From Paracoccaceae bacterium (GTDB taxonomy: Bacteria; Pseudomonadota; Alphaproteobacteria; Rhodobacterales; Rhodobacteraceae): a stretch of DNA of 56,431 bases. Positions 46,346-56,431 of the stretch are shown here, piece after piece. How positions within the stretch are numbered: the stretch's first letter is position 1; every line of letters begins with the position of its first letter. The stretch is from contig JAFGXY010000056.1 in the NCBI GenBank assembly GCA_016936395.1, forward strand, positions 1 to 56,431, in the 5' to 3' direction. A program made the position numbers and the translations under genes. The notes beneath the pieces were generated by a model that was not told the origin of the DNA, did not search any database, and saw only the letters and a list, made by a program, of their open reading frames with translations.

Positions 46346-46421
<76 letters not shown>

Positions 46422-46450
46422 AAATTCCCAAATGATTACAATGCGTTAGC

Positions 46451-46472
46451 AGGCCGCCCTTCGGGGCGGCCT
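46451..46472. terminator. Hairpin after the tRNA-Ala gene
   Basis: A perfect 9-bp stem, AGGCCGCCC with GGGCGGCCT around TTCG, 29 bases after the tRNA. A short T-containing tail (TCGCGTTT) follows. Confidence 0.65.
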
Positions 46473-46485
46473 TCGCGTTTCTGAG

Positions 46486-46510
46486 CAGTTTGCAACATTC
46501 TTGCAACATT
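46486..46510. repeat. Left inverted repeat with two TGCAACATT boxes
   Basis: TGCAACATT occurs at 46491 and 46502, 11 bases apart. The 25-base block is the reverse complement of 56062-56087 except for one extra base there. Such paired short boxes resemble integrase arm sites or element ends (inference). Confidence 0.7.
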
Positions 46511-46619
46511 TGCATCACCACGTTTAAACATGGGTGCCTTGACGCCCCTTGCCCCATGTTCGACAAACTCCTGCCACATCAGGGCGTTACCCCTCAACTG
46601 AACGAGTGGGGGCGAATCT

Positions 46620-47441
46620 GTGAACCAAGTCGCAAAGATCGAGGAGACGGCGAGCACGGCTTACAGCTTGCGCGCTGCTCATCGTTCCGACGACTTCCTC
46701 AAGATCATGCCGCCCGCCGAAGACACGGAATGGCACCCGCTTCCTGCAATCCTCGACGGGATCACGTTCGCTGCCCGCTTTATCGGCAGTTCGAAGATGT
46801 GGGGGCATCATCGCGCCTACCTCGACCATGTGCATGTTGCGCGGGGCAAGGTAATCGCGACCGACGGGAAGTGCCTTGTCGAGTACAGCGTTGGCGAGTG
46901 CCCCGACTTCTCCATCCTACCCGTGCAGGTTGCGCAGATCACAGCGTTTGGCGAGGCACCTTCCCATGTGAATCTCGACAGTCGCCTCAAGTTGAAATGG
47001 GCGAACGGCAACTATTTGATCACAAAGTTCCGCACCTTCCCAGAATTGGTTGAGCAGGTGACTCCGCTTATCGCGGCGCACGATTGGGACGACTTCATCA
47101 AGATGGACCCTGACTGGCGTGACCAGATCATCGGGCGGTTTTCCTACAAGTCTGCGCCTGACCGCGTTGGGTATAAGCGCAGTAAAGGACTCGTCTACTT
47201 CACACCTGACCGCATAGTTGGGGGGATGTATGACTTCGCTCCTGACATAGAACTGCGGATGGTCACTCACACGAAGGCGGACGTTGCGTTCGACCAGAAG
47301 CAACTACTGCGTGCGTTGAAGGTGGCGGACGAGTTCAAGTTCGTCCATGGCGATGTGTCCTACTTCTTGTTCAAGGCACCGAACGTGCGCGGGGTCATTG
47401 CACTTGACCGCCCGGTCGATCCTGTGCCGGTGCTGTCATGA
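46620..47441 (+). CDS. Putative phage sliding-clamp-like protein (273 aa)
   Basis: Not securely identified. The pattern LDHVHVARGKVIATDGKCLV, in which a strand leads to ATDG, and the C-terminal FKFVHGDVSYFLFKAPNVRG leading to VIALDRP resemble bacterial and phage beta-clamp subunits, but the length is well below a full DnaN (about 370) and no clamp-binding residues were identified. A GTG at 46620 with a G-rich upstream tract is the start. It is the first gene after the left inverted repeat, and its stop overlaps the next gene as ATGA. Confidence 0.45.
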   Translation: MNQVAKIEETASTAYSLRAAHRSDDFLKIMPPAEDTEWHPLPAILDGITFAARFIGSSKMWGHHRAYLDHVHVARGKVIATDGKCLVEYSVGECPDFSILPVQVAQITAFGEAPSHVNLDSRLKLKWANGNYLITKFRTFPELVEQVTPLIAAHDWDDFIKMDPDWRDQIIGRFSYKSAPDRVGYKRSKGLVYFTPDRIVGGMYDFAPDIELRMVTHTKADVAFDQKQLLRALKVADEFKFVHGDVSYFLFKAPNVRGVIALDRPVDPVPVLS

Positions 47442-48052
47442 GGGTGGTGTCCGAAGGGCTATTCTTCCATCCAGACGGGTCCGCACCTGCCGACGTGCTG
47501 AACCGGATGCTCGACGGCACCATGAACCCGCGACTCGACTCTCCCTTTCTGCCTGCATTTGCGGAAACCCACGAAGCGCGCGAACGTATCGTGGCACAGA
47601 TCAGCCGGACAGAAGGCCGTCTTGCGATGCTGCGGGGGATGCTTGCACGGATGGATGAACGCCTTGCGGCACAGGAGGTGGCAACCGCGCACTATGCAGA
47701 GACGGGCGAGATCGACCCTATCCTCCTGCCTTCCTGCGAGTCAGTCGCAAAGGCGGAAGTTGCCAAGCAGACGCAGCAGGTCAAAGATGAAGCTGCCTTC
47801 GTGCTGCCGGATGAGTTGGTGAAAGCCGGTTGGTCCCAGAAATCAGTGCATGTTACGGACAACGATATAATCGTGACCATCCGCAAGACGCGGACGGACG
47901 CGCCTGTCACGGTCGAGGAAACAGCCAAGGCCGTGGTCGAGAAGTTCAAGATTGCGTTGCAGCCGTTCCAAGTGGACGGTGCAAACTTCCGCGTCCTGCG
48001 TGATCGCATCGCGACGCGCCCGCAACAACCGAAAGGGCCTCCCGATGGCTGA
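47438..48052 (+). CDS. Unknown accessory protein (204 aa)
   Basis: Starts MRVVSEGLFFHPDGSAPADV. A probable coiled coil lies near 45-80 (EARERIVAQISRTEGRLAML and RGMLARMDERLAAQ), followed by a lysine- and valine-rich C-terminal domain. No family recognised. The start overlaps the previous stop by four bases (ATGA), and its own stop overlaps the next gene by eight, so these three form one translation unit. Confidence 0.65.
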   Translation: MRVVSEGLFFHPDGSAPADVLNRMLDGTMNPRLDSPFLPAFAETHEARERIVAQISRTEGRLAMLRGMLARMDERLAAQEVATAHYAETGEIDPILLPSCESVAKAEVAKQTQQVKDEAAFVLPDELVKAGWSQKSVHVTDNDIIVTIRKTRTDAPVTVEETAKAVVEKFKIALQPFQVDGANFRVLRDRIATRPQQPKGPPDG

Positions 48053-48434
48053 GATCGCTTCTGAGGACGACCTGTGGAAGCTGTTCTGGGAGAAGCCACC
48101 GAGGAACGGCCATAGGCAGAAGGGTGAACAGTTTGTCTATGGCGACACTCTGCTGACCCTCCTAGACGCGAAGTCGTTCGGTGCCACCGGAAAGAGCAAG
48201 CTGGCGCTGACCGACAAAACCAGACGCTACCTCGTCGCCCATGACAGTGCGCAGGCATTCGTGCGGCAGTGTGACCTTCGCGCAGTCATCAAGGCTTTAG
48301 CACGGGATCACGCAGGCGCTGTCCACGTCGGCTATCTTGGGACTGTCAGAACAGGGCATCAGCCTGACGAAGATGCTTCGTCAACGCGGCAACCACCTTT
48401 GCCTGCGGATCAAGCGACGTCTTTGTCAGCTTGA
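48045..48434 (+). CDS. Unknown accessory protein (129 aa)
   Basis: Starts MAEIASEDDLWKLFWEKPPR. No family recognised. It has clear coupling to the upstream gene (8-base overlap). Its last ~30 codons overlap a convergent gene by 89 bases; that tail (HQPDEDASSTRQPPLPADQA) looks composition-driven, so the protein may originally have ended earlier or this end may reflect a frameshift. Confidence 0.55.
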   Translation: MAEIASEDDLWKLFWEKPPRNGHRQKGEQFVYGDTLLTLLDAKSFGATGKSKLALTDKTRRYLVAHDSAQAFVRQCDLRAVIKALARDHAGAVHVGYLGTVRTGHQPDEDASSTRQPPLPADQATSLSA

Positions 48435-48663
48435 TGGCTTCGGCTGCGACGTCGGCGGCTGTCAGCCCTTCCAAATGAGGCTTGTTCCGAATGTTGTACC
48501 ATATGCGGAACAAGCCGCCCTCAGTCCGCTTGACTGACATTTTGTGAACCAGCAACGCAGTTTCACCACCACCATCGAGCAGGACGGCAATGTCTCGCGC
48601 GAACTGCTTGGCGTCCTTCTCGGAGATAGCGAAGGTCACGTCGAACAGGGTCAAAGCGATCAT
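48346..48663 (-). CDS. Unknown accessory protein (105 aa)
   Basis: Starts MIALTLFDVTFAISEKDAKQ. GGA precedes the ATG, which overlaps the stop of the upstream gene as ATGA. An alpha/beta segment (ETALLVHKMSVKRTEGGLFR) precedes a helical C-terminus rich in Lys and Ala. No family recognised. Last of a four-gene minus-strand unit. Confidence 0.6.
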   Translation of the reverse strand: MIALTLFDVTFAISEKDAKQFARDIAVLLDGGGETALLVHKMSVKRTEGGLFRIWYNIRNKPHLEGLTAADVAAEAIKLTKTSLDPQAKVVAALTKHLRQADALF

Positions 48664-48851
48664 AGGGTTTCCTTTGTGTTGAGCCAGCAGTCGCGGCACT
48701 CGCCCGTCTGCGTGTATCGGGCTGGATAGGGGCCATGGTGCGGGCACGGTTCGTCTGCGGCCTCGTAGAGAGGCATTTCCATCGCCTTGGCGGCGTCGCG
48801 GTCGCGATAGAACGGGACGTGGGCAAGCACGCCGTTGACGATTCCGACCAT
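48660..48851 (-). CDS. Small zinc-knuckle-like protein (63 aa)
   Basis: Starts MVGIVNGVLAHVPFYRDRDA. The C-terminal half has CPHH, then about ten residues, then CRDCW (a C-x2-H ... C-x2-C pattern), the layout of a small treble-clef or zinc knuckle found in phage endonuclease and packaging accessory proteins. Both ends overlap neighbouring genes (ATGA). Function unknown. Confidence 0.6.
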   Translation of the reverse strand: MVGIVNGVLAHVPFYRDRDAAKAMEMPLYEAADEPCPHHGPYPARYTQTGECRDCWLNTKETL

Positions 48852-49213
48852 CAGATAGGCCCCTCGTCTTGATTGTCGGCAATGTCATCCTTGAACGGTC
48901 GAAGGGAATCCTTCGGGCCGATGAAGTCGAGACGCAGCGCGGCCATTTCCTCAAGAGATGCGCCGGGTATCCAAACCTTGACGCGGTGCTTACCGCCGCG
49001 CGCGATGGTCAAAATGGGGCGTCGCTTCGGATCAAGTTCAACGCGAATATCCACCACCTCCTGCGGCACCGCGTCGATTTGATCAAGAACACGAGGCAAG
49101 ACGATCTTCTGATAGACAGCTTTGACCTGCCAAGGATAGGAGATCAGCGCAAGGATACCTTCCGCACTCTCCTTGCACAGGTTGGTGGTCAAAACGAGGT
49201 CGGTCGCGCGCAT
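48851..49213 (-). CDS. Unknown accessory protein (120 aa)
   Basis: Starts MRATDLVLTTNLCKESAEGI. Mostly beta-rich, with RRPILTIARGGKHRVKVWIP near the middle. No family recognised. The stop overlaps the next start. In the minus-strand unit 49447-48346. Confidence 0.6.
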   Translation of the reverse strand: MRATDLVLTTNLCKESAEGILALISYPWQVKAVYQKIVLPRVLDQIDAVPQEVVDIRVELDPKRRPILTIARGGKHRVKVWIPGASLEEMAALRLDFIGPKDSLRPFKDDIADNQDEGPI

Positions 49214-49447
49214 CTATCGCACCGTGTCCAGCCATTGCTTCGCTTGGGCCGCAACCTTCAACTCGGTGGCCACGATGCCTGTCGCCCACGCGTGATCTTC
49301 CTCGGCACGGCGGAGGAACGCTGCCGAGTCCTCGCGAAGATGGGCACAGGTTTTGTCCAGCATCATCGCCTCATACCAAGCCTGTGACGCGACGAGGCGA
49401 AGGCGGGTGATTTCAAGCAGGGTGGCGGCGGCTTCGGAGACTATCAT
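49214..49447 (-). CDS. Small helical protein, first of a minus-strand unit (77 aa)
   Basis: Starts MIVSEAAATLLEITRLRLVA with AAAGGA seven bases upstream. It is fully helical, including EDSAAFLRRAEEDHAWATGI. Its stop directly abuts the next start. No family recognised. Promoters must lie in the 183-base gap to the divergent exonuclease gene. Confidence 0.6.
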   Translation of the reverse strand: MIVSEAAATLLEITRLRLVASQAWYEAMMLDKTCAHLREDSAAFLRRAEEDHAWATGIVATELKVAAQAKQWLDTVR

Positions 49448-49630
49448 CTGGCATCCTTTCGATTGGAACGCCCCAAGCGTCACCGTTGATAGGCCGACAC
49501 TGGACGGAGCGCCCGACAGCGATCAAGCACGGTTCAAGGAGTGATTGAAGTCGTGTGGGTAGCGTCTCAACGGCGCTTGCCACGAGTGTCGCCATGCCGC
49601 TATCTTTCAACCAAAACGGGAGGTTGATCT

Positions 49631-50497
49631 ATGCGCTTTGTTGCCATTGACGTTGAAACCGCGAACGCCGACATGGCGTCGATATGCTCAATCGGGGCCG
49701 CTGTCTTTGAGGACGGTCAGCTTGCGGACGAGTGGTATTCGCTGATCGACCCAAAAGACTACTTCGACGGTATGAACGTGTCGATCCACGGGATCACAGA
49801 AGCCGACGTTCGCGGCGCACCTACCTTCAAAGCAGCGATGGCCGAGATTGAACGGCGGATTGGCGACCAGATCGTCGTCACCCACACCCACTTCGACCGC
49901 GTTGCGATGCACCAAGCCGCGACGCGATGGTCAGTGCCCGCTGTTCGCTGCACTTGGCTTGATTCCGCCCGCGTCGTGCGGAGGACATGGGCAGACTGCG
50001 CTCGATCAGGCTACGGCCTGTCTGCCGTCTGCAAGCGCATCGGCTACACGTTCGACCACCACAACGCGCTGGAAGATGCGAAGGCGTCAGGACACGTCCT
50101 GCTTGCCGCTATGCGCGATAGCGGCATGGACCTTGACACGATGCTCAAGCGCGTCCTGCAACCCATCGACCCTTCGGCCAGCGGGTCTGCTGCATCCATC
50201 AAGCGCGACGGGAATGCCGATGGTGAGTTTGCAGGAGAGGTGATCGTGTTCACGGGTGCCCTTGAGATACCGCGCCGTGAGGCCGCAGACCTTGCGGCAT
50301 CGGTTGGGTGCGAAGTCGGTGCAGGCGTCACGAAGAAGACGACCATGCTTGTTGTCGGTGACATGGACGTCCAGCGGTTGGCCGGGCACGAGAAGTCATC
50401 GAAGCATCGCAAGGCGGAAGAATTGGCAGCGGCGGGCTACCCCATCCGCATCATCCGTGAAACCGACTTCAAGCAATTGGTCGCGACGGCTGGTTGA
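49631..50497 (+). CDS. DEDDh 3'-5' exonuclease fused to a BRCT domain
   Basis: 288 residues. An N-terminal DnaQ-like domain carries the D7/E9 pair (MRFVAIDVETANADMASICS), ISIHGITEADVRG-like VSIHGITEADVRGAPTFKAA, and HNALEDAKASGHVLL with the H and D residues. A BRCT domain fills the end (about 198-288: GEVIVFTGALEIPRREAADL with AASVGCEVGAGVTKKTTMLV). The pairing occurs in some bacterial exonucleases; here it sits among phage genes. The expected role is processing or repair of DNA at ends. The ATG at 49631 has GGGAGG upstream. Confidence 0.85.
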   Translation: MRFVAIDVETANADMASICSIGAAVFEDGQLADEWYSLIDPKDYFDGMNVSIHGITEADVRGAPTFKAAMAEIERRIGDQIVVTHTHFDRVAMHQAATRWSVPAVRCTWLDSARVVRRTWADCARSGYGLSAVCKRIGYTFDHHNALEDAKASGHVLLAAMRDSGMDLDTMLKRVLQPIDPSASGSAASIKRDGNADGEFAGEVIVFTGALEIPRREAADLAASVGCEVGAGVTKKTTMLVVGDMDVQRLAGHEKSSKHRKAEELAAAGYPIRIIRETDFKQLVATAG

Positions 50498-50524
50498 CGT
50501 CCCCGGTGGTTCTATTCTCGTTGT

Positions 50525-50549
50525 GTGAGCCTCATCAACGGAGGCTCAC
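50525..50549 (+). promoter_or_regulatory. Hairpin masking the ribosome site of the 58-aa gene
   Basis: GTGAGCCTC (50525-50533) pairs perfectly with GAGGCTCAC (50541-50549), and the second arm contains the GGAGG two bases before the ATG at 50552. Translation could be switched by anything that opens this 9-bp stem. Confidence 0.65.
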
Positions 50550-50551
50550 CC

Positions 50552-50728
50552 ATGTTTTTCACCAGACCTGCGCCCGCTTTGCCCGAACGGCCCTTTCCCC
50601 TCGTGCTGCGCCAGTCCCAACGATGCGACCTGCCCAACCCACGGCTAGGCCGACGCCGTGCGCTTGCGCTGATCGAAGACAAACCGAAGACACCGCGGCC
50701 TGCACCTTACAAGTTTGCTGCTGAATGA
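50552..50728 (+). CDS. Small basic proline-rich protein (58 aa)
   Basis: Starts MFFTRPAPALPERPFPLVLR and is basic and proline-rich with no hydrophobic helix. A GGAGG lies within an upstream hairpin that ends two bases before ATG. No family recognised. The clean ribosome site and lack of a competing frame are the support. Confidence 0.45.
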   Translation: MFFTRPAPALPERPFPLVLRQSQRCDLPNPRLGRRRALALIEDKPKTPRPAPYKFAAE

Positions 50729-50800
50729 GGTGACTCCTGATCGCACGGTTTGAAGCCGCGCGGTCATCGCCTATCGTCCCGGCAAGCAACGGAGACGGCG

Positions 50801-51292
50801 ATGGACGATTTCAGCGATGATCTTTTCGACGGCCCTGACCGCGCGAACCCGGATCGCATTTGGGAAGCGATGATGCGCGTTCGCGGCGGCAGTGCGGCAC
50901 GCCCCGCCTTCATCCTGCACTGGATTGAAGAAGTCGGCGCAGGCGCTGCGTTCTGGCCCATCGTGACGCGTGCATGGTCAGGCTTCGACCGTATCCCGCA
51001 CGAGGAGTTTGCGGAGTGGTTCCACATCTTCCGTCGCTGGCGTCCAAAGGTCGAAGGATTGCCTCGCCGCATGAAGGTCTATCGCGGGCAAGATTCCAGT
51101 GCGCCGCTGGGGCTGTCGTGGACACGCAATCGCAAGGTGGCGGAAGACTTCGCCCGTGGGCATCGCTTCTACTTCAACCCCAACCCCATCGTGCATGAAC
51201 TGGTGATCACGCCGGGCAAAGTTGCGTTCATCTGCAACGACCGTGAGGAAGAAGAAATCGTGCTGCGCGCCATTCCAGCAGCGCCCGTCTAA
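50801..51292 (+). CDS. Putative ADP-ribosyltransferase-like protein (163 aa)
   Basis: Starts MDDFSDDLFDGPDRANPDRI with GGAGA upstream. The second half matches the R-S-E pattern of ADP-ribosyltransferase folds in order: RRMKVYRGQ (Arg strand), LGLSWTRNRKVAEDFARGHR (S-x-T strand and helix) and VAFICNDREEEEIVL (E-x-E strand). That is the compact layout of many bacterial and phage ARTs, but activity is not proven. It stands alone and convergent with the terminase unit, as accessory (moron-like) genes often do. Confidence 0.5.
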   Translation: MDDFSDDLFDGPDRANPDRIWEAMMRVRGGSAARPAFILHWIEEVGAGAAFWPIVTRAWSGFDRIPHEEFAEWFHIFRRWRPKVEGLPRRMKVYRGQDSSAPLGLSWTRNRKVAEDFARGHRFYFNPNPIVHELVITPGKVAFICNDREEEEIVLRAIPAAPV

Positions 51293-51379
51293 GGCGGGGT
51301 GATGATCACGCCCCACCACGATGCCCGCTGACGCCGATGCACCAAGCGCCGCCCAGCTCTCGCGGGCGCTCTGCCGGAA

Positions 51380-52117
51380 TCAAAACCAGCCGCGAAGTCT
51401 GTGCTGTCCCGTGATCTGCGGCTGCAACTTCTCTGACGCAAAAGCCCCGATGATCAACGCAATCCCGAGATCGCCGTGACCTGCGGCTGACCGCGACTGC
51501 GCGATGATCTGGTTTCCCGCAGCCGTCGTCTGGGTAGAGAAGCTGGCAAGGTCTTGTTCGATCTCGCTGCGGAGCGGGCAGTCGTGCGCAAACTTGATCT
51601 CGCCTGCTGCGAACATCACGGCCAAGTTTTCAACGAGGGCCGTTTTCCCTGCGTTGACGTATCGCCCTTTCTTGCTCCAGTCCTGACCGCCCGTCATTTG
51701 AATGGCCTTGTGGTCGATCCCCTGATCCCAGAGCATGTCTGAAACGACGCGGCCAATGCTTGTGCCGTCAATCGCGAGTTCCGACTTCCCGCCAAGTGGC
51801 GGAGCGTTCTTGAGGCGGATCAGGTAATCGACGACCGAGACATACGACGCGCCGCGAAACCTGTCGGCAAAGACTATGGTACGACTGCGAGGGCCAACGA
51901 TGACCGTGGTGTCGTCCACGATGGGCAGGGCCTCGTCCTTGATCACGACGACCGCTGAGAAATCGTTTGCTTGCCCCAAGTCAGCGGCGATCTGGAAGCG
52001 GCTGAAACCCGTGACGCGCGGGATGGCAGGGTCTTGCCCTGTTTCATTGACCACGCGCCCGTCTGGCAGATAGGCGAGGTTGAGGGCGTTGTACTGGTAG
52101 TTCACATTCTCGGACAA
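51380..52117 (-). CDS. Terminase large subunit, nuclease half
   Basis: 245 residues starting TTG at 52117, with AGGAGG seven bases upstream. SRFQIAADLGQANDFSAVVV (metal-binding Asp), SELAIDGTSIGRVVSDML, and GHGDLGIALIIGAFA (the late catalytic Asp in the HxDxxxA-like motif) form the RNase H-like nuclease of phage terminases, which cut concatemeric DNA. Full TerL proteins usually carry ATPase and nuclease in one chain; here they are two genes overlapping by 16 bases in different frames. Confidence 0.78.
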   Translation of the reverse strand: MSENVNYQYNALNLAYLPDGRVVNETGQDPAIPRVTGFSRFQIAADLGQANDFSAVVVIKDEALPIVDDTTVIVGPRSRTIVFADRFRGASYVSVVDYLIRLKNAPPLGGKSELAIDGTSIGRVVSDMLWDQGIDHKAIQMTGGQDWSKKGRYVNAGKTALVENLAVMFAAGEIKFAHDCPLRSEIEQDLASFSTQTTAAGNQIIAQSRSAAGHGDLGIALIIGAFASEKLQPQITGQHRLRGWF

Positions 52118-52941
52118 ATTGCGCCCTCCTGCATATTGGTGGCCTGTTCGATGGCCGAAATGTCGAAGTAGCTGACCCCGTCGGACAACATCTCGACGTC
52201 AATTTCCTGCCGAAAACGAGTGGCAGACATGGTGCGGCGCATCCGTTCGACTTTCTCTGACAGTCGTGGCAATTCAGTGCCTTTGACCACGATGCGGTGT
52301 AGATCGTTGTCCAAGCGTTCGCGCCCGTTCTCGTCGAGGAACAAACGGGCGAAGTAGTTGTTCTTCCCGGCTGGTGTGCTGCTGAAATAGACCTGCCCTT
52401 GGGTCGTGAGCATCGGCAGCACGCCTGAGATCAACGCCTCGCCGCGCACGTCCTCCGTGTCGTCGCCCTTAAGAAATGCACATTCGTCGATCACCAAGAG
52501 CGACACCGACGGGAAACCCCGAATCGTGTCGGAGGTCGAGGGGAGCGCGATAACTCGCGCCCCGTTCGACATTTCCAGTTCGGTAAGGGTTGACCGCGTG
52601 ACCACGAGGTCCGTGCGGCGAAGCTGGCGGGTGACTTCGCGGGCGATGATCTTCGCTTGCCGTTCCGACGGTGCGATGCACAGCGACAGGGATTCTGCGA
52701 CGTGCAGTTCCTCGACGCAGCGGGCGGCGAGAACAGAAGTCTTGCCAGACTGCCGCCCCACGCGCATTGCCACTTCCGATGCGACGGCGCCACCGGGCAA
52801 GGCGGACGCAGGCGGGCGGACGCTGAACGCCTCGACCTGCCAGCTATCTGGCTCGTGGCCCATCCAATGCTGCAAGCGGGCTTTCGCATCCAAAGAGCGT
52901 TCTAGACCCTCCGCCCAAGTGATTAAGCCGTCAAATGCCAA
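52102..52941 (-). CDS. Terminase large subunit, ATPase half
   Basis: 279 residues from the TTG at 52941 (an ATG at 52974 lacks a ribosome site; AAGAGGA precedes the TTG). Walker A is EVAMRVGRQSGKTSVLAARC, Walker B is VSLLVIDECAFLKGDD, and the coupling motif is FSSTPAGKNNYFARLF, as in DNA-packaging terminase motors. The chain ends at 52102, where a full TerL would run into the nuclease domain. Confidence 0.82.
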   Translation of the reverse strand: MAFDGLITWAEGLERSLDAKARLQHWMGHEPDSWQVEAFSVRPPASALPGGAVASEVAMRVGRQSGKTSVLAARCVEELHVAESLSLCIAPSERQAKIIAREVTRQLRRTDLVVTRSTLTELEMSNGARVIALPSTSDTIRGFPSVSLLVIDECAFLKGDDTEDVRGEALISGVLPMLTTQGQVYFSSTPAGKNNYFARLFLDENGRERLDNDLHRIVVKGTELPRLSEKVERMRRTMSATRFRQEIDVEMLSDGVSYFDISAIEQATNMQEGAICPRM

Positions 52942-53524
52942 TGCCCGCGTCCTCTTTCGTGACCGACAGCACATTCTGCCGCATCAGGCGGAGCAGCGGT
53001 TCGCGGGCCGCTGGAACTTCCATGCACACCTGTTGCAGGATGTTCCGAAGCTGGACCCATTCGGGTGATTGAGACAGGTTGACGGAGACGGTCAGGTTTG
53101 TGCTCATGCGTCCGTGCATGGTGGAAATGTCTCGGAGGATCTTCCGCAGGCCTTCCATTGCCGACAACGCGAACGCGTCATCCTCGTTTTCCTCGGCGCG
53201 GCTGATCAGCTTTTCGACGCGCGCGGCAAGGCTCTCGTATGTCCGCCCGACGTCAAGGCGATCCTCATTCAGGATTGCAGTGTCGCCTTCGATCTTCGAT
53301 AGGCGCACGTCCGCCAGCACGGCGCGCACCATTTCCTCGTCGATATGCTCCTTGCGGAAGCGAACGAGCGTGTCCGGGTGCAAGCCGAGACGCTTCGAGA
53401 TCGCGGCTTTCGTCATCCCGCCGGGAAGGTTGTTCTCGCCGAGGATGATCTGCTTGATGATGGTCTTGCGCTCTGGATGCAGTAGGATCGTGTTCCTACG
53501 GCCCCTGCCTTTCGGATCAGCCAT
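52931..53524 (-). CDS. Terminase small subunit-like protein
   Basis: 197 residues. An N-terminal helix-turn-helix, MTKAAISKRLGLHPDTLVRF, is followed by helical regions (VGRTYESLAARVEKLISRAE) as in TerS proteins that bind pac or cos DNA. It overlaps the large-subunit gene by 11 bases; the identification relies on this order and the HTH. The ATG at 53524 lies one base after the upstream stop. Confidence 0.7.
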   Translation of the reverse strand: MADPKGRGRRNTILLHPERKTIIKQIILGENNLPGGMTKAAISKRLGLHPDTLVRFRKEHIDEEMVRAVLADVRLSKIEGDTAILNEDRLDVGRTYESLAARVEKLISRAEENEDDAFALSAMEGLRKILRDISTMHGRMSTNLTVSVNLSQSPEWVQLRNILQQVCMEVPAAREPLLRLMRQNVLSVTKEDAGIGI

Positions 53525-53525
53525 T

Positions 53526-53927
53526 TTAAGAAACACCCGACGCTTGTGTTGCGGAGGTGATGGGGCGGCAATTATCGTCCGCATACCATCGGACACGCGC
53601 CCGAAGCCTGTCCCATTCCTCAACGGAGAGATCGACCAAATGATCGTAGACGCGATTTGCCGCCTTCACCCCCATGCCGCGCGTGAGCAGATCATGGCGA
53701 ACATTGCCAAGATTGACGCCGCCGAGGTGCAACTGCATCGCCTGAGCCAGAACGTGGATCAGCGCGTTGGTCGTGCTGCTTGACGCATCGACCTTTTCGA
53801 CGCCGTTGCGCGTCGCAATGGAAAGGCCATCGCGGAGGGCGATAACCTCGTCCTCCGCATTCATGCCGACTACGACCCGAAAGGCGTAGTCGAGACAGGC
53901 ACGATCCTCAGGAGTCGCTTTGGGCAT
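53526..53927 (-). CDS. Unknown protein upstream of terminase (133 aa)
   Basis: Starts MPKATPEDRACLDYAFRVVV. AGGAGG lies nine bases upstream. Helical; AMQLHLGGVNLGNVRHDLLT is its most distinctive stretch. No family recognised. It overlaps the upstream gene by 20 bases. Confidence 0.65.
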   Translation of the reverse strand: MPKATPEDRACLDYAFRVVVGMNAEDEVIALRDGLSIATRNGVEKVDASSSTTNALIHVLAQAMQLHLGGVNLGNVRHDLLTRGMGVKAANRVYDHLVDLSVEEWDRLRARVRWYADDNCRPITSATQASGVS

Positions 53928-54555
53928 TTGCTGCGGCCTCCTGAAGTTCGAAGATGGTCCGGGCGTGGGCGGGCAGATCGTCGAGGCTGTTGAAGGTGCG
54001 AACCTTGAAGCCTTCGCGTTCAGCGGCCATGCGGCGATTGATGATGCCTTCACCCGTCTGCATGTCTGCCCGGAGCCAGCGCACCATTTCATGCCGATCA
54101 TCGAAGGTGAAAACTTTCGACTTCATGACTTCTGGGCGTGCATTGTTCCGCATGGTTGGGTCTTCGCCGCTGTCCAGAATACGGAGAGGAACGCCACGCG
54201 AGGTAGCGGCGGCTTTGGCTTCCCGGTACGCTTGAGCGTTGCGCGCCTGATCTCTTGTCAGCACGACCTCGTTGCCATGATCACCGCCACCGGAGGCAAG
54301 GCGCACAGAGCCGTCCGGTTGCGTGACGAGGTTCAGGCTAGCGCGCTTGCGGTCGCGTTCTTCCTGTTCCAGCTTGTCGAAGATGTCGGGTGCGGGAGAT
54401 TTGGCCGCGCGCCTTGCGTCCTTCACCTCGTCCAGGAGGCGGACATTGTGATCGCGAACTCCCTGAATAAGCGCGCCTTGCTTTTGGACGGTCTCGGTCA
54501 GTGATGCGACTTGCTGCATCAAGGCTTGGATTGCGGCGGTCGTATCGTCAGGCAT
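53908..54555 (-). CDS. Unknown coiled-coil protein upstream of terminase (215 aa)
   Basis: The first 45 residues (QALMQQVASLTETVQKQGAL and QGVRDHNVRLLDEVKDAR) form a coiled coil. The rest is charged and includes a GDHGNEVVLTRDQARNAQAY linker. A scaffold or packaging accessory role is possible but not shown. AGAGGA precedes the ATG at 54555. Confidence 0.6.
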   Translation of the reverse strand: MPDDTTAAIQALMQQVASLTETVQKQGALIQGVRDHNVRLLDEVKDARRAAKSPAPDIFDKLEQEERDRKRASLNLVTQPDGSVRLASGGGDHGNEVVLTRDQARNAQAYREAKAAATSRGVPLRILDSGEDPTMRNNARPEVMKSKVFTFDDRHEMVRWLRADMQTGEGIINRRMAAEREGFKVRTFNSLDDLPAHARTIFELQEAAANAQSDS

Positions 54556-54688
54556 TGGATGGTCCTCTCATGACAAAAATGGGCGCGACTTTCGCCACGC
54601 CCTGAGTGTCAGGAAAGGGGTGCGCGCCGCGTCTTAGCTTGACGATGGAACCTTTCCCGGTTGCTCCGCAAGAAAAGGACGAGGTAAT

Positions 54689-55492
54689 TCAGGCCGCCTT
54701 GCGGGACTCTTTGAGGTAGAGGCGCAAGCCTGCGTTCGGCTGATATTGGGGCAGCCGCTTTCCTTTTGCCGTCCAGTCGATTTCGACATTCGGGAGGGCA
54801 GCGCGGAGGGTTTCGACAAAGGCGTGGGGGTCTTTCGCAAGGAAGGTGAGGGAGTTTAATCCAGCACGGGATGCCTGCGTGACCGTCCACAACGCCTGAC
54901 CGATGGGGGTGCGCAGGGACGGAAGGGGGCCAAGGATGCGAGAGGTTTCGCCGTCATTCCATTGCCGAGAAGCCCGCAAGTGCCCAGAACATGAGACAAA
55001 GAGGGGGTCATCAACCACGGTCACGTCCACGTCCTCAGGTTCGATCCGTTGCGGTACGGGCTTGATGATCGGCAGTCGTTGGCGTCGGGGCGGCGTCGGG
55101 GTGCCCATGGACGTGGGCTTGGGTTCGGTTGCGGGCTTGGCCGATGGTGTGGGCCTGTGGCCCAATGAGGCCCAGCGGGCGCGAGCGCGTTCAAGGCGTT
55201 GGGCGAGGTGCACGCCCCCGGGTGGGTCAACCTTGCCGTCTAGGATCATCCGCACGCGGGTTGCGAGCAGATCACCATCAAGGTCGAGGTAGGAACACCA
55301 CCTGTTGCGCCAGTGTGCCAACTGTCCGTAACGATCAGTCAAGTAGCGCATGGCTTGAACGGCTTCGGTATCGACGTCTTCACGCGTGCCTAGATGGAAC
55401 ATGTCCGTGAAGGCTTGGGCGAGGATCGCGGCAGCAAGGGATTGCTCAGGCGTCGAGGCGCGGGTGCGCCAGATCGGTGGCATAACAGTCAT
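54689..55492 (-). CDS. Unknown protein in the late-type unit (267 aa)
   Basis: Starts MTVMPPIWRTRASTPEQSLA. An N-terminal helical part (about 1-105), a Pro/Ser/Thr-rich linker (PTPSAKPATEPKPTSMG), and a C-terminal domain (about 150-267) with DVTVVDDPLFVSCSG. No family recognised. No clear ribosome site before 55492; an internal ATG at 55483 is possible. Confidence 0.55.
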   Translation of the reverse strand: MTVMPPIWRTRASTPEQSLAAAILAQAFTDMFHLGTREDVDTEAVQAMRYLTDRYGQLAHWRNRWCSYLDLDGDLLATRVRMILDGKVDPPGGVHLAQRLERARARWASLGHRPTPSAKPATEPKPTSMGTPTPPRRQRLPIIKPVPQRIEPEDVDVTVVDDPLFVSCSGHLRASRQWNDGETSRILGPLPSLRTPIGQALWTVTQASRAGLNSLTFLAKDPHAFVETLRAALPNVEIDWTAKGKRLPQYQPNAGLRLYLKESRKAA

Positions 55493-55502
55493 GGCGCAAC
55501 TG

Positions 55503-55772
55503 TCAGGCGTTCAGGGCGTTGCCGATGGATTGCACCCAGCGCCAAGGCAGGTCGATGTGACCGTGGATGGCCGTGATGCGCAGGCCTGTGTCCGTTGGAT
55601 ACACCTGATAGTGAGGGGTGCTGTCCACGGGGGCGGTCGAGGGGTCGGTGGCGAAGGCAATCAACTGATCACCAAGGCTGGTCGCACCTTCGATCTTGAG
55701 GTTCGAGGTGCTGTTGATCCCGGTCAGGGTGATGGTGGCGGTGGACCCGTCGAGGGCGGCTGTGAAGGTCAT
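55503..55772 (-). CDS. Unknown beta-rich protein (89 aa)
   Basis: Starts MTFTAALDGSTATITLTGIN with AGGAG eight bases upstream. Thr/Ile-rich repeats of beta type suggest a small virion or surface protein, but no family is recognised. It starts the visible minus-strand unit and ends ten bases before the next gene. Confidence 0.6.
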   Translation of the reverse strand: MTFTAALDGSTATITLTGINSTSNLKIEGATSLGDQLIAFATDPSTAPVDSTPHYQVYPTDTGLRITAIHGHIDLPWRWVQSIGNALNA

Positions 55773-56050
55773 GGGTTTGCTCCTGTGATGTGCCATCACG
55801 TTTACAACCCGCTGTGGGGGCGTTGGCGAAAGATGAAGGTGGAGCCGGGGGCAAATGAGGTGTTGTGGCAGCGCGGGCGCACGCGGGGCCAACCGCGTTC
55901 GGGCATCGGCATAGGGCGATACGTCGGGACATGCGACAGCGCCGCAGCAGATGAAGGGTGGTGTGGGGTTCGCGGGGCATTCTGCGTGATCGGGAAGGAT
56001 GCGCGTGTCACCGCCCGGTAATAGGCGACCTAGTTTGCCGACTATCCGCA

Positions 56051-56087
56051 TTGTTGCAAGCAATGTTGCAAGCAATGTTGCAAACTG
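56051..56087. repeat. Three direct 12-bp repeats and right inverted repeat
   Basis: TTGTTGCAAGCA, ATGTTGCAAGCA and ATGTTGCAAACT follow each other from 56051. Bases 56062-56087 are the reverse complement of 46486-46510 with one extra C. The direct repeats look like protein-binding iterons. Confidence 0.75.
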
Positions 56088-56134
56088 ACCGGGGCGAACG
56101 ATGATCCTGCTTTGGTTAGAATCGGTTAGCGGAT

Positions 56135-56170
56135 CAGACTACTTGATGCCAAGGCAAGTGGTCTGGTTTT
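56135..56170 (+). terminator. Stem-loop followed by GTTTT
   Basis: Arms CAGACTACTTG and CAAGTGGTCTG pair with one mismatch around nine bases and are followed by GTTTT. It looks like a rho-independent terminator on the plus strand, but no supported plus-strand gene precedes it. Confidence 0.4.
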
Positions 56171-56346
56171 CGAGGGCAGTTGCGACCAAGTCGCAAGGAA
56201 GCAGGTGGAGATAGCGGGGGAAGATAGGCCTGTGGGATGGAGCGAAGGGATCGTCGTCGTGGCCACGCAAAGGCGCAAACCACCATCGGTTTTCAAATCC
56301 CTTGCGCGAAAATTAATGGATGGATGGCTCTTTTCAAACCTCCATC

Positions 56347-56431
56347 TGTTGATTGCCACTGAGATTTGACCCGGCAGCAGCCAAAATTGTCATTGAGAAT
56401 TGACCCATGTGCAACCTTGCCCCGGCTTGAA
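56347..56431. mobile_element. End of a probable insertion sequence, cut by the window edge
   Basis: Begins TGTTGATTGCCACTGAGATT. The motif ACTGAGATTTGACCC (56358) recurs as ATTGAGAATTGACCC (56392), 34 bases later. Repeated end motifs of this wording are typical of IS21-type elements (from memory, not verified). The transposase genes would lie to the right. Confidence 0.5.

Follow-up and report, generated by a model that had tools for sequence, protein, structure and literature searches.

The window analysed here, a single whole contig (C24) of 56,431 nucleotides, carries terminase genes to the right of a tRNA-Ala gene, and the question is what kind of element such a block represents. The initial annotation proposed a satellite that packages with a helper's capsid or a decayed prophage, and considered it equally possible that a larger prophage extends past the right edge and has its virion genes there. 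We consider it likely that an integrative phage satellite of 13-16 kb is present here, of which the block makes up the left 9.9 kb, about two thirds.

Genes of the block

The features were assigned as follows (window coordinates):

46346..46421, plus strand: tRNA-Ala(GGC), integration site and left att (ARAGORN)
46490..46507, plus strand: left pair of putative arm-type repeats, TTGCAAC, 11-nt spacing (repeat comparison with relatives)
46620..47441, plus strand: beta-clamp-like protein (AlphaFold2 model and Foldseek DnaN matches)
47438..48052, plus strand: g2, conserved, adjoins the clamp gene (tblastn: L026, L027, L031, L035, L036, L041)
48045..48434, plus strand: g3, conserved (tblastn: L027, L036)
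48346..49483, minus strand: g4-g7, four small genes, variable cargo (ORFs)
49631..50497, plus strand: DEDDh exonuclease-BRCT protein, candidate defence cargo (Pfam; PADLOC PDC-S48, 4.7e-32)
50801..51292, plus strand: small cargo gene (phrog_4776, a PHROG without known function, 8.4e-8)
51380..52117, minus strand: TerL-C, nuclease half of the large terminase (phrog_27743, 4.3e-30)
52102..52974, minus strand: TerL-N, ATPase half of the large terminase (Terminase_6N, 4.4e-11; phrog_7579, 2e-29)
52931..53584, minus strand: TerS-like small terminase (place and conservation)
53526..53927, minus strand: g14, conserved, no known family (family scans, tblastn to relatives)
53908..54555, minus strand: g15, conserved, modelled with a long N-terminal helix (pLDDT 79, pTM 0.36)
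54689..55492, minus strand: g16, conserved, no known family (family scans, tblastn to relatives)
55503..55772, minus strand: g17, first gene of the packaging operon (conserved in relatives)
56050..56087, minus strand: putative internal arm-type repeats, TTGCAAC in triplicate with 12-nt spacing, some 280 nt ahead of the g17 start codon
56343..56431, no strand: IS-like repeat running off the contig end (copies at two other contig ends)

Family scans of the block genes upheld the initial picture of a terminase region without portal, capsid, tail or integrase: none of the scanned genes (right of position 46422, apart from a 67-aa frame at 50525-50728) belonged to an integrase, portal or capsid family, and the block within the window holds no frame of at least 350 aa. 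As had been noted, the gene beyond TerL-C lies on the opposite strand in the ORF list. The description of TerS and TerL as complete-looking stood insofar as both TerL halves matched PHROG families and TerL-N also a Pfam family, but TerL is encoded by two intact, separate genes and not by one, in the window and in the aligned relatives. In TerL-N, residues G77, K78 and E164 were invariant and D163 nearly so (17 aligned rows); D46, D117 and D216 were invariant in TerL-C (13 aligned rows), which matched Terminase_6C at 0.0036, below the family cut-off. A frameshift behind the two frames was rejected in view of their overlap of 16 nt, found in the window and 13 relatives, and of the sequence preceding the TerL-C start, which was GGAGG in 12 of 20 rows and GGAGA in 5 more (17/20 together). 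The TerS-like gene had no PHROG match and only a sub-threshold Pfam match (HTH_29, 0.048). Since no family exceeded the cut-off, it was named from its place and conservation. In the relatives, the packaging operon reads g17, g16, g15, often g14, TerS, TerL-N, TerL-C. Neither g14-g17 nor TerS matched a known family in the family scans, and TerL-C, TerS and g15 had no match in a phage collection.

Among the remaining genes, the exonuclease-BRCT protein was borne out by RNase_T (3.1e-15) and phrog_192 (2.7e-37), with the BRCT domain just under the cut-off (3.4e-4; 21.2 bits against 21.3). The suspected clamp likewise gained support from a model with a DnaN-like fold (pLDDT 67; best Foldseek E 3.2e-8), for which the best 50 Foldseek matches listed were beta clamps or clamp-containing complexes; clamp homologues sit at the tRNA end of some relatives. 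The name "ART-like" given to the gene at 50801 could not be confirmed, because it matched only PHROGs without known function. No tblastn match at 1e-4 was found for g4-g7 among the relative loci compared. Beside the tRNA, the cargo is variable (methyltransferases and others) and probably guards the host against other phages.

Complete relatives and the missing right end

The right edge of the window, position 56431, is the end of the contig and lies within a repeat that recurs, from about 56343, with 86 identical bases at the end of C65 and with 33 bases at the start of C45. Because the contig ends inside this repeat, the right side of the element was sought in relatives. Direct repeats of the tRNA 3' half, 29-46 bp long, were found in 12 of 15 elements in one set and in 10 of 20 loci in another; after removal of one duplicate, this gave 21 distinct complete relatives from many genera, 17 of the window clade and 4 of a sister clade. 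Strains with an intact member include Ruegeria faecimaris DSM 28009 and Rhodovulum robiginosum DSM 12329. They measure 13,062-15,927 bp, the window-clade elements above 15 kb being L114 (15.2) and G050 (15.9). The same compact gene order recurs in all 21 with varied cargo, and most combine integrase, AlpA-like helix-turn-helix protein, primase, small genes, TerS, TerL-N, TerL-C and variable cargo. In the members scanned, a tyrosine integrase, an HTH_17/AlpA-like protein and an AEP primase were identified; the named primase was unmatched in some complete relatives (e.g., L113, L115, L117).

A portal had no match in the 17 window-clade elements and was present in 4/4 sister-clade elements. Among the families listed (25 of 51 and 25 of 58, so that a structural gene of one or two elements could escape), no capsid or tail family occurred in 20 of the 21 complete elements; G050 stood outside the PHROG scans and was compared by named genes only. 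In 10 window-clade elements, 72 further proteins were scanned, and the 25 of 51 PHROG families listed were methyltransferases, helicases and families without known function; 84 proteins from a further 10 elements (6 of the window clade and 4 of the sister clade) gave methyltransferases, one reverse transcriptase and families without known function among the 25 of 58 listed. A few window-clade elements share some cargo frames of at least 350 aa.

These data bear on whether the element could be self-sufficient, with shell proteins encoded by g14-g17 that have diverged beyond recognition. The four genes are indeed conserved without a known family, and a recognised viral fold for g15 was rejected, as no BFVD match was obtained at E ≤ 0.001. 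Their products are only 89-267 aa long, the block lacks a frame of at least 350 aa, no frame of that size is common to all window-clade elements besides integrase and (mostly) primase, and the g15 model consists of a long helix plus a small domain, all of which makes this explanation very improbable. A gene transfer agent is a capsid-tail cluster without att sites of its own, whereas here flanking att repeats are present and no capsid-tail family is among those listed. Nor was the portal, capsid and tail module of a temperate prophage recognised in the relatives among the families listed.

A distance of 13-16 kb separates attR from the tRNA in the relatives, and the far side is occupied by primase, AlpA-like gene and integrase. 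The position of attR contradicts the suggestion that a larger prophage continuing past the right edge is equally possible. Such a prophage would agree with the contig stopping at 56431, and the IMG/VR viral contigs L157, L158 and L150 resemble the family in carrying TerL-N and TerL-C as separate neighbouring genes, but differ from it in that a portal follows TerL and, in L158, also a major head protein. The ORFs read by eye in the 10 kb to the left of this genome's right flank did not look phage-like and, together with the anatomy of the relatives, render a normal larger prophage extremely unlikely. A scan of viral contigs with the TerL-N alignment returned 175 distant relatives, of which 80 were kept and L130-L159 looked at; with the TerL-C alignment, none was confirmed. 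A close TerL was present in one viral contig only, L018, which carries the same genes as genome locus L037.

The search for a right end, which the initial annotation had called for, located the contig end in its repeat; in this assembly it yielded no primase (a search without positive control), family integrase, right arm sites or attR for this copy. The expected right flank adjoins unrelated genes, the chromosomal junction is rearranged, and the sequence left of the flank had only short, weak matches to three same-genus genomes. An integrase on C26 (L074) was rejected as the missing end, with 20-26% identity to family integrases over alignments of at least 262 residues and no TTGCAAC pair in the stretch compared. 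For the present copy, the integrase end is either lost or left out of the assembly. In the proposed comparison for presence and absence, 6 same-genus genomes were examined at the flank; 4 of them have an empty tRNA-Ala site, and in G002 and G010 a different element occupies the same tRNA-Ala. The satellite reading is supported for the family, with its 21 complete relatives and att repeats; for this copy, the decay reading is right in part, since its integrase end is missing, so that as assembled it is stranded and would not be expected to move without help in trans.

Loss of virion genes from an ordinary prophage, the other initial proposal, would agree with the missing integrase end and attR and with the right flank joining unrelated DNA. 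Some members of the family have decayed, as indicated by their broken TerL genes: L038, L039, L041 and L042 have partial or broken copies, L129 and G104 a stop within TerL-N, and L037/L018 no TerL-C match. The genes compared in this copy are nevertheless open and look constrained, with codon position 3 differing most in TerL-N, TerL-C, TerS, g15, clamp and g2. Moreover, a compact order recurring in 21 complete elements (17 without portal match; 4 with portal and no recognised capsid), and a tree in which 42 satellite TerL-N rows form one set apart from phage TerLs (95/82, starred, with a long-branch warning), speak against a decayed ordinary prophage, which we judge distinctly unlikely. The methyltransferase-rich cargo and the PDC-S48 match could instead suggest a defence island in which terminase genes are retained to disturb phage packaging and is not itself moved in particles; retention of integrase, AlpA-like protein and mostly primase, intact att repeats and conserved motifs in both TerL halves make this unlikely as well.

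Arm-type repeats ahead of the packaging genes

Only 3 matches occur in the 3.07 Mb assembly, the left TTGCAAC pair being one of them. Of 19 elements, 14 have a second, internal pair ahead of the packaging genes, in every case on the minus strand and with 12-nt spacing; the reversed word gave 0/20 and base shuffles 3/4000. L026, L027, L029 and L031 had no internal pair even when two mismatches were allowed. The motif variant tracks the arm-binding domain of the integrase (N-terminal 75 residues). The cluster at 56050-56087 was dismissed as an arm of attR, since in the relatives this cluster sits within the element, ahead of the packaging operon. Beside the internal pair, a second motif, which is absent in the window, was spotted by eye and then counted in the same elements (8 of 14, both-strand matches at one spot included). 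The recurrence of arm-type repeats inside the element, ahead of packaging genes, is a new observation. Judging from these sites, the integrase, perhaps with AlpA, may also control the packaging genes; if so, an integrase site shared by the att arms and the packaging operon would offer a simple means of timing packaging.

Comparison with known satellites and a proposed life cycle

The satellites described in the sources consulted redirect the helper terminase, supply TerS or come with an entire head (PMC6092414, PMC10690885, PMC10803314, PMC4936722). Gram-negative PICIs are described there as having integrase, AlpA-type regulator, primase and, in some, TerS; by the criteria given, integrase, replication module and master regulator follow in this order, structural and lytic genes are lacking, the size is about 12-15 kb, and prophages never occupy the attachment sites (PMC6092414). 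The family shares integrase, AlpA-type regulator, primase, size (13.1-15.9 kb) and TerS with them, but adds tRNA 3'-end sites and a complete two-gene TerL, none being named for PICIs in the available text (PMC6092414). Integrase, replication and regulator modules are present in the required order in most complete relatives but not in the truncated window copy, and structural genes are lacking in the window clade (families listed, 25 of 51 and 25 of 58) but not in the portal-bearing sister clade. Capsid-forming PICIs likewise have their own TerS and TerL, and also portal, capsid, protease, connectors and HNH (PMC10690885); none of the portal/capsid set was recognised in the window clade among the families listed, and the portal only in the sister clade, so neither has the full set. 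The Vibrionaceae PICMI carries int, alpA (HTH_17 in the model) and prim (DUF5906 in the model), which also occur together in most complete relatives, but its prototype has six genes and a fis site, and the word "terminase" is absent from the text of the paper (PMC10803314); the family has tRNA sites and 15-21 called ORFs of at least 70 aa in each of 10 elements. Element phiAH14b of Pseudomonas sp. ANT_H14 is similar in size (16.8 kb), has an AlpA-like regulator and uses another prophage's capsids, but no terminase of its own is noted in the part available (PMC4936722). Our literature search, partial in coverage, found no Rhodobacterales phage satellite with a terminase. Altogether, the family is best placed among phage satellites, intermediate between PICIs and capsid-forming PICIs, rather than with larger prophages.

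We propose a satellite whose intact members would insert at the tRNA 3' end by means of the tyrosine integrase and the AlpA-like helix-turn-helix protein, and whose packaging operon would supply its own DNA-choosing and DNA-pumping enzymes with no recognised shell. We infer mobilisation by a helper phage: on helper growth, the element would excise and replicate, TerS would mark satellite DNA, and the two-gene TerL would dock on the helper portal and fill helper heads, while integrase bound at the internal arm-type site might tie excision to expression of the packaging genes. A tentative and rather doubtful extension is a graded shell-less series, from TerS with two-gene TerL to the same set plus portal, in which satellite portals seed helper capsids and the window-clade integrase is an excision-packaging switch. 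A satellite portal in a helper capsid would ensure that only satellite DNA is pumped in, and in the window clade, copies of the arm-type sites ahead of the packaging operon would let the integrase act as the switch. A motor without a shell, and a motor with portal in the sister set, would show stepwise capture of packaging by a satellite, and such elements would directly test which TerL-portal and portal-capsid pairs are compatible.

Gene layout and the two-gene terminase

The element lies to the right of the tRNA-Ala on contig C24, which is the window in its entirety and belongs to an assembly of 3.07 Mb in 77 contigs. A repeat beginning at about 56343 recurs on two other contigs, C65 (at its end) and C45 (at its start).

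Features of the element in the window
46346-46421: tRNA-Ala, left border of the element
directly right of the tRNA-Ala, plus strand: clamp-like gene and the conserved genes g2 and g3
after g3, minus strand: four small genes
after these four, plus strand: exonuclease-BRCT gene and a small gene
minus-strand run, in right-to-left order: conserved genes g17, g16, g15 and g14, TerS, TerL-N (ATPase half), TerL-C (nuclease half)

The initial annotation had described the terminase as complete-looking. Both halves were indeed matched and their motifs kept, but TerL is encoded by two genes, with the ATPase half matching Terminase_6N and phrog_7579 and the nuclease half phrog_27743. The TerL-N and TerL-C ORFs share 16 nt in the window, as they do in 13 relatives. 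Of 20 rows compared, 12 carried GGAGG upstream of the TerL-C start and five others GGAGA; the start codon in the window is TTG. In the alignments, G77, K78 and E164 of TerL-N were invariant and D163 nearly so (17 rows), while D46, D117 and D216 of TerL-C, which we take to be the catalytic triad, were invariant in 13 rows. TerL-N, TerL-C, TerS, g15, the clamp gene and g2 of the window were open, with differences peaking at codon position 3 (one relative compared per gene). The beta-clamp-like protein (46620-47441) is satellite-borne and found at the tRNA end in only some members.

Relatives, complete elements and the missing integrase end

Searching with TerL-N recovered 17 loci from genome contigs plus a single viral contig, L018, whose genes are those of genome locus L037; two further close relatives, G018 and G050, came from related whole genomes, those used being of the window's own family. 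Named relatives were mainly Rhodobacterales (in the tree, Paracoccaceae and Roseobacteraceae where a family is given), and L040 belonged to Anderseniella (Parvibaculaceae). Within the window's order, TerL-N matched in 40 of 390 genomes (1e-10). Twenty-five of these matches, own genome counted, scored at least 104 bits, and 15 scored below 70 bits, the latter with uninterrupted reading frames 439-649 aa long, as expected of a one-gene TerL. Sequences of 20 loci from the order were retrieved. For the class, 8 of 385 genomes drawn gave matches (1e-20), with frames below 300 aa in four of the eight, own genome counted. L037 (8302-9787) showed a tandem pair of TerS-like genes and no TerL-C match; in G050 (L023) the TerS gene is split by an insert.

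A direct repeat of the tRNA 3' half (29-46 bp) was detected at 13.0-15.9 kb in 12 of 15 elements tested, the exceptions being the window, L034 (a stretch cut short) and L039, and also in 10 of 20 further loci. L110 and L035 are one element and were counted once, which leaves 21 distinct elements, all complete and 13,062-15,927 bp long; they are located at tRNA-Asn, -Thr, -Ala, -Lys or -Arg. Seventeen belong to the window clade (L026-L033, L035, L036, G018, G050, L111-L115) and four to the sister clade (L117, L118, L119, L122). Most contain an integrase, an AlpA-like HTH_17 protein, an AEP primase, small genes, the packaging run and a variable stretch; the clamp, g2 and g3 are present in some. 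The primase of L032 also matched DUF5906, named primase families were unmatched in some complete elements (e.g., L113, L115, L117), and L027 has a 1019-aa gene with no clear family match at the primase place.

Searches of the window's genome revealed no second tRNA 3'-end copy (up to 3 mismatches allowed), no primase (one primase type as query, no positive control) and, across the 3.07 Mb, no right-arm repeat pair; the family integrase search returned remote integrases only. In six same-genus genomes examined out of 15 other genomes, the same tRNA was an empty site in four and held another element in two. Their right flank was found on C30 of the window's genome (93% identity to G003), abutted on its left by sulfotransferase-, glycosyltransferase- and RTX-like genes (L079 1-10320, frames read by eye), and the tRNA-to-flank spacer was absent. 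Because these parts are missing or remote and the flank is joined elsewhere, the integrase end of the window's copy is deleted or unassembled. In G002 and G010 (L064, L067), the element occupying tRNA-Ala is 92% alike between the two over 2.7 kb. The contig of L079 opens with a repeat that C19 also has at its start, as does C15 in shorter form, and a different integrase + HTH pair lies near the end of C26 (L074 9788-11237).

Shell genes and the portal-bearing sister clade

In ten window-clade elements, 72 proteins outside named families matched 51 PHROG families (1e-3); the best 25 of these included no capsid or tail family, all being methyltransferases, helicases or of unknown function. For ten more elements (G018, L111-L115, four sister elements), 84 such proteins matched 58 families (1e-5), and the best 25, which include every family matched by at least two proteins, again held no capsid or tail, only methyltransferases, one reverse transcriptase and families of unknown function. 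The scans cover 20 of the 21 complete elements, with the named genes covered for G050; the window's conserved genes were family-scanned singly. PADLOC on the first 72 proteins gave methyltransferases and mad2 among the best 25 of 178 matches. No frame of at least 350 aa was common to all window-clade elements besides the integrase and, in most, the primase; some cargo frames were common to a few (e.g., 529 aa in L029, L032, L113). In viral contigs of a related split-TerL lineage, a portal lies downstream of TerL-C (L157, L158, L150), and L158 also encodes a major head protein.

L070, L117-L128, L072/L073 and L221 encode a DUF4055 protein, its gene placed between g16 and the HTH or primase gene (in L121 the frame as given has one stop). 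All five scanned matched portal family phrog_145 (2e-98 to 2.5e-112), and that of L221 matched a solved portal structure (1.2e-39). The portal search gave no match in the window clade, L069, L071 or L129. The TerL-N tree has 57 rows and carries a long-branch warning; its 42 satellite rows stood apart from those of phages, plasmids and other viral contigs (support 95/82). The window's clade comprised 24 rows, several of them partial loci, all without portal match (support 100/100); its sister set had a portal in 15 and none in three. The portal-bearing sister element of L221 (1811-10478) resides on a 391 kb plasmid of Rhodobacteraceae SC52. Two small circular plasmids, pSR11 of Salinibacter (L219, 11 kb) and one of Streptomyces virginiae (L220, 16 kb), carry a P4-type primase together with an apparently split TerL.

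Probable arm-type repeats and known satellites

A TTGCAAC pair with 11-nt spacing adjoins the tRNA. On the integrase-start side a pair occurs at 10-12 nt and, farther out, a single inverted copy in many elements. Elements of class B (L032, L035, L036) have the motif TTTCAAAC, those of class C (L026, L027, L031) have CTGCAACA. A usable left pair was present in 19 of 22 elements examined (none in L118 and L119, an unrelated pair in L117), and a right pair in all 18 complete elements among the 19. An internal pair with the same words was found at one place in 14 of the 19, always on the minus strand with 12-nt spacing; its distance to the tRNA was 8.7-11.2 kb, and it lay between the packaging genes and the integrase-HTH-primase block, where this block is present and matched. 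Reversed words gave 0/20 and base-shuffled interiors 3/4000. In L122 the internal pair is spaced by 11 nt and includes one mismatch; no such pair was found in L026, L027, L029 and L031 with up to 2 mismatches. Genome-wide (3.07 Mb), the pair pattern matched three times, always within the window's element (control 0). A second motif, CAACCGNYTGA (up to 1 mismatch), spotted by eye in the same elements and counted afterwards, accompanied the internal pair at a distance of 25-27 nt in 8 of 14 elements, and in 13 of 21 it stood close to the right end; its density per kb was 7.8 internally, 2.6 at the right and 0.19 elsewhere, both-strand matches on one spot being counted twice. In the window it was absent from both places.

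Most probably the repeats serve as arm-type sites for the integrase, because motif class follows the N-terminal 75 residues of the integrase (class B, 82-91% identity within, 28-46% to the other 15), whereas AlpA separates the classes less well (58-63% within, up to 69% outside). The internal site might control the packaging genes. PMC7379572 describes excisionases that double as regulators of transcription, among them P2 Cox; in PICMI, in contrast, expression of alpA reportedly left the satellite's genes unaltered (PMC10803314).

Intact window-clade relatives agree with the PICI criteria of PMC6092414 in the order of their genes, in size and in having no recognised structural genes. A further criterion there is that prophages never use the att sites; at the window's tRNA-Ala, two same-genus genomes hold another element. 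The PICI section of that paper gives TerS for some PICIs and mentions no TerL; cf-PICIs have a whole head (PMC10690885). Among the papers listed in a literature search, none described an element with such a terminase. Judged by their genes, the satellites of the window's family appear to lie between PICIs and cf-PICIs, and the family is therefore classed here as PICI-like, equipped with a terminase of its own in two genes, rather than as cf-PICI.
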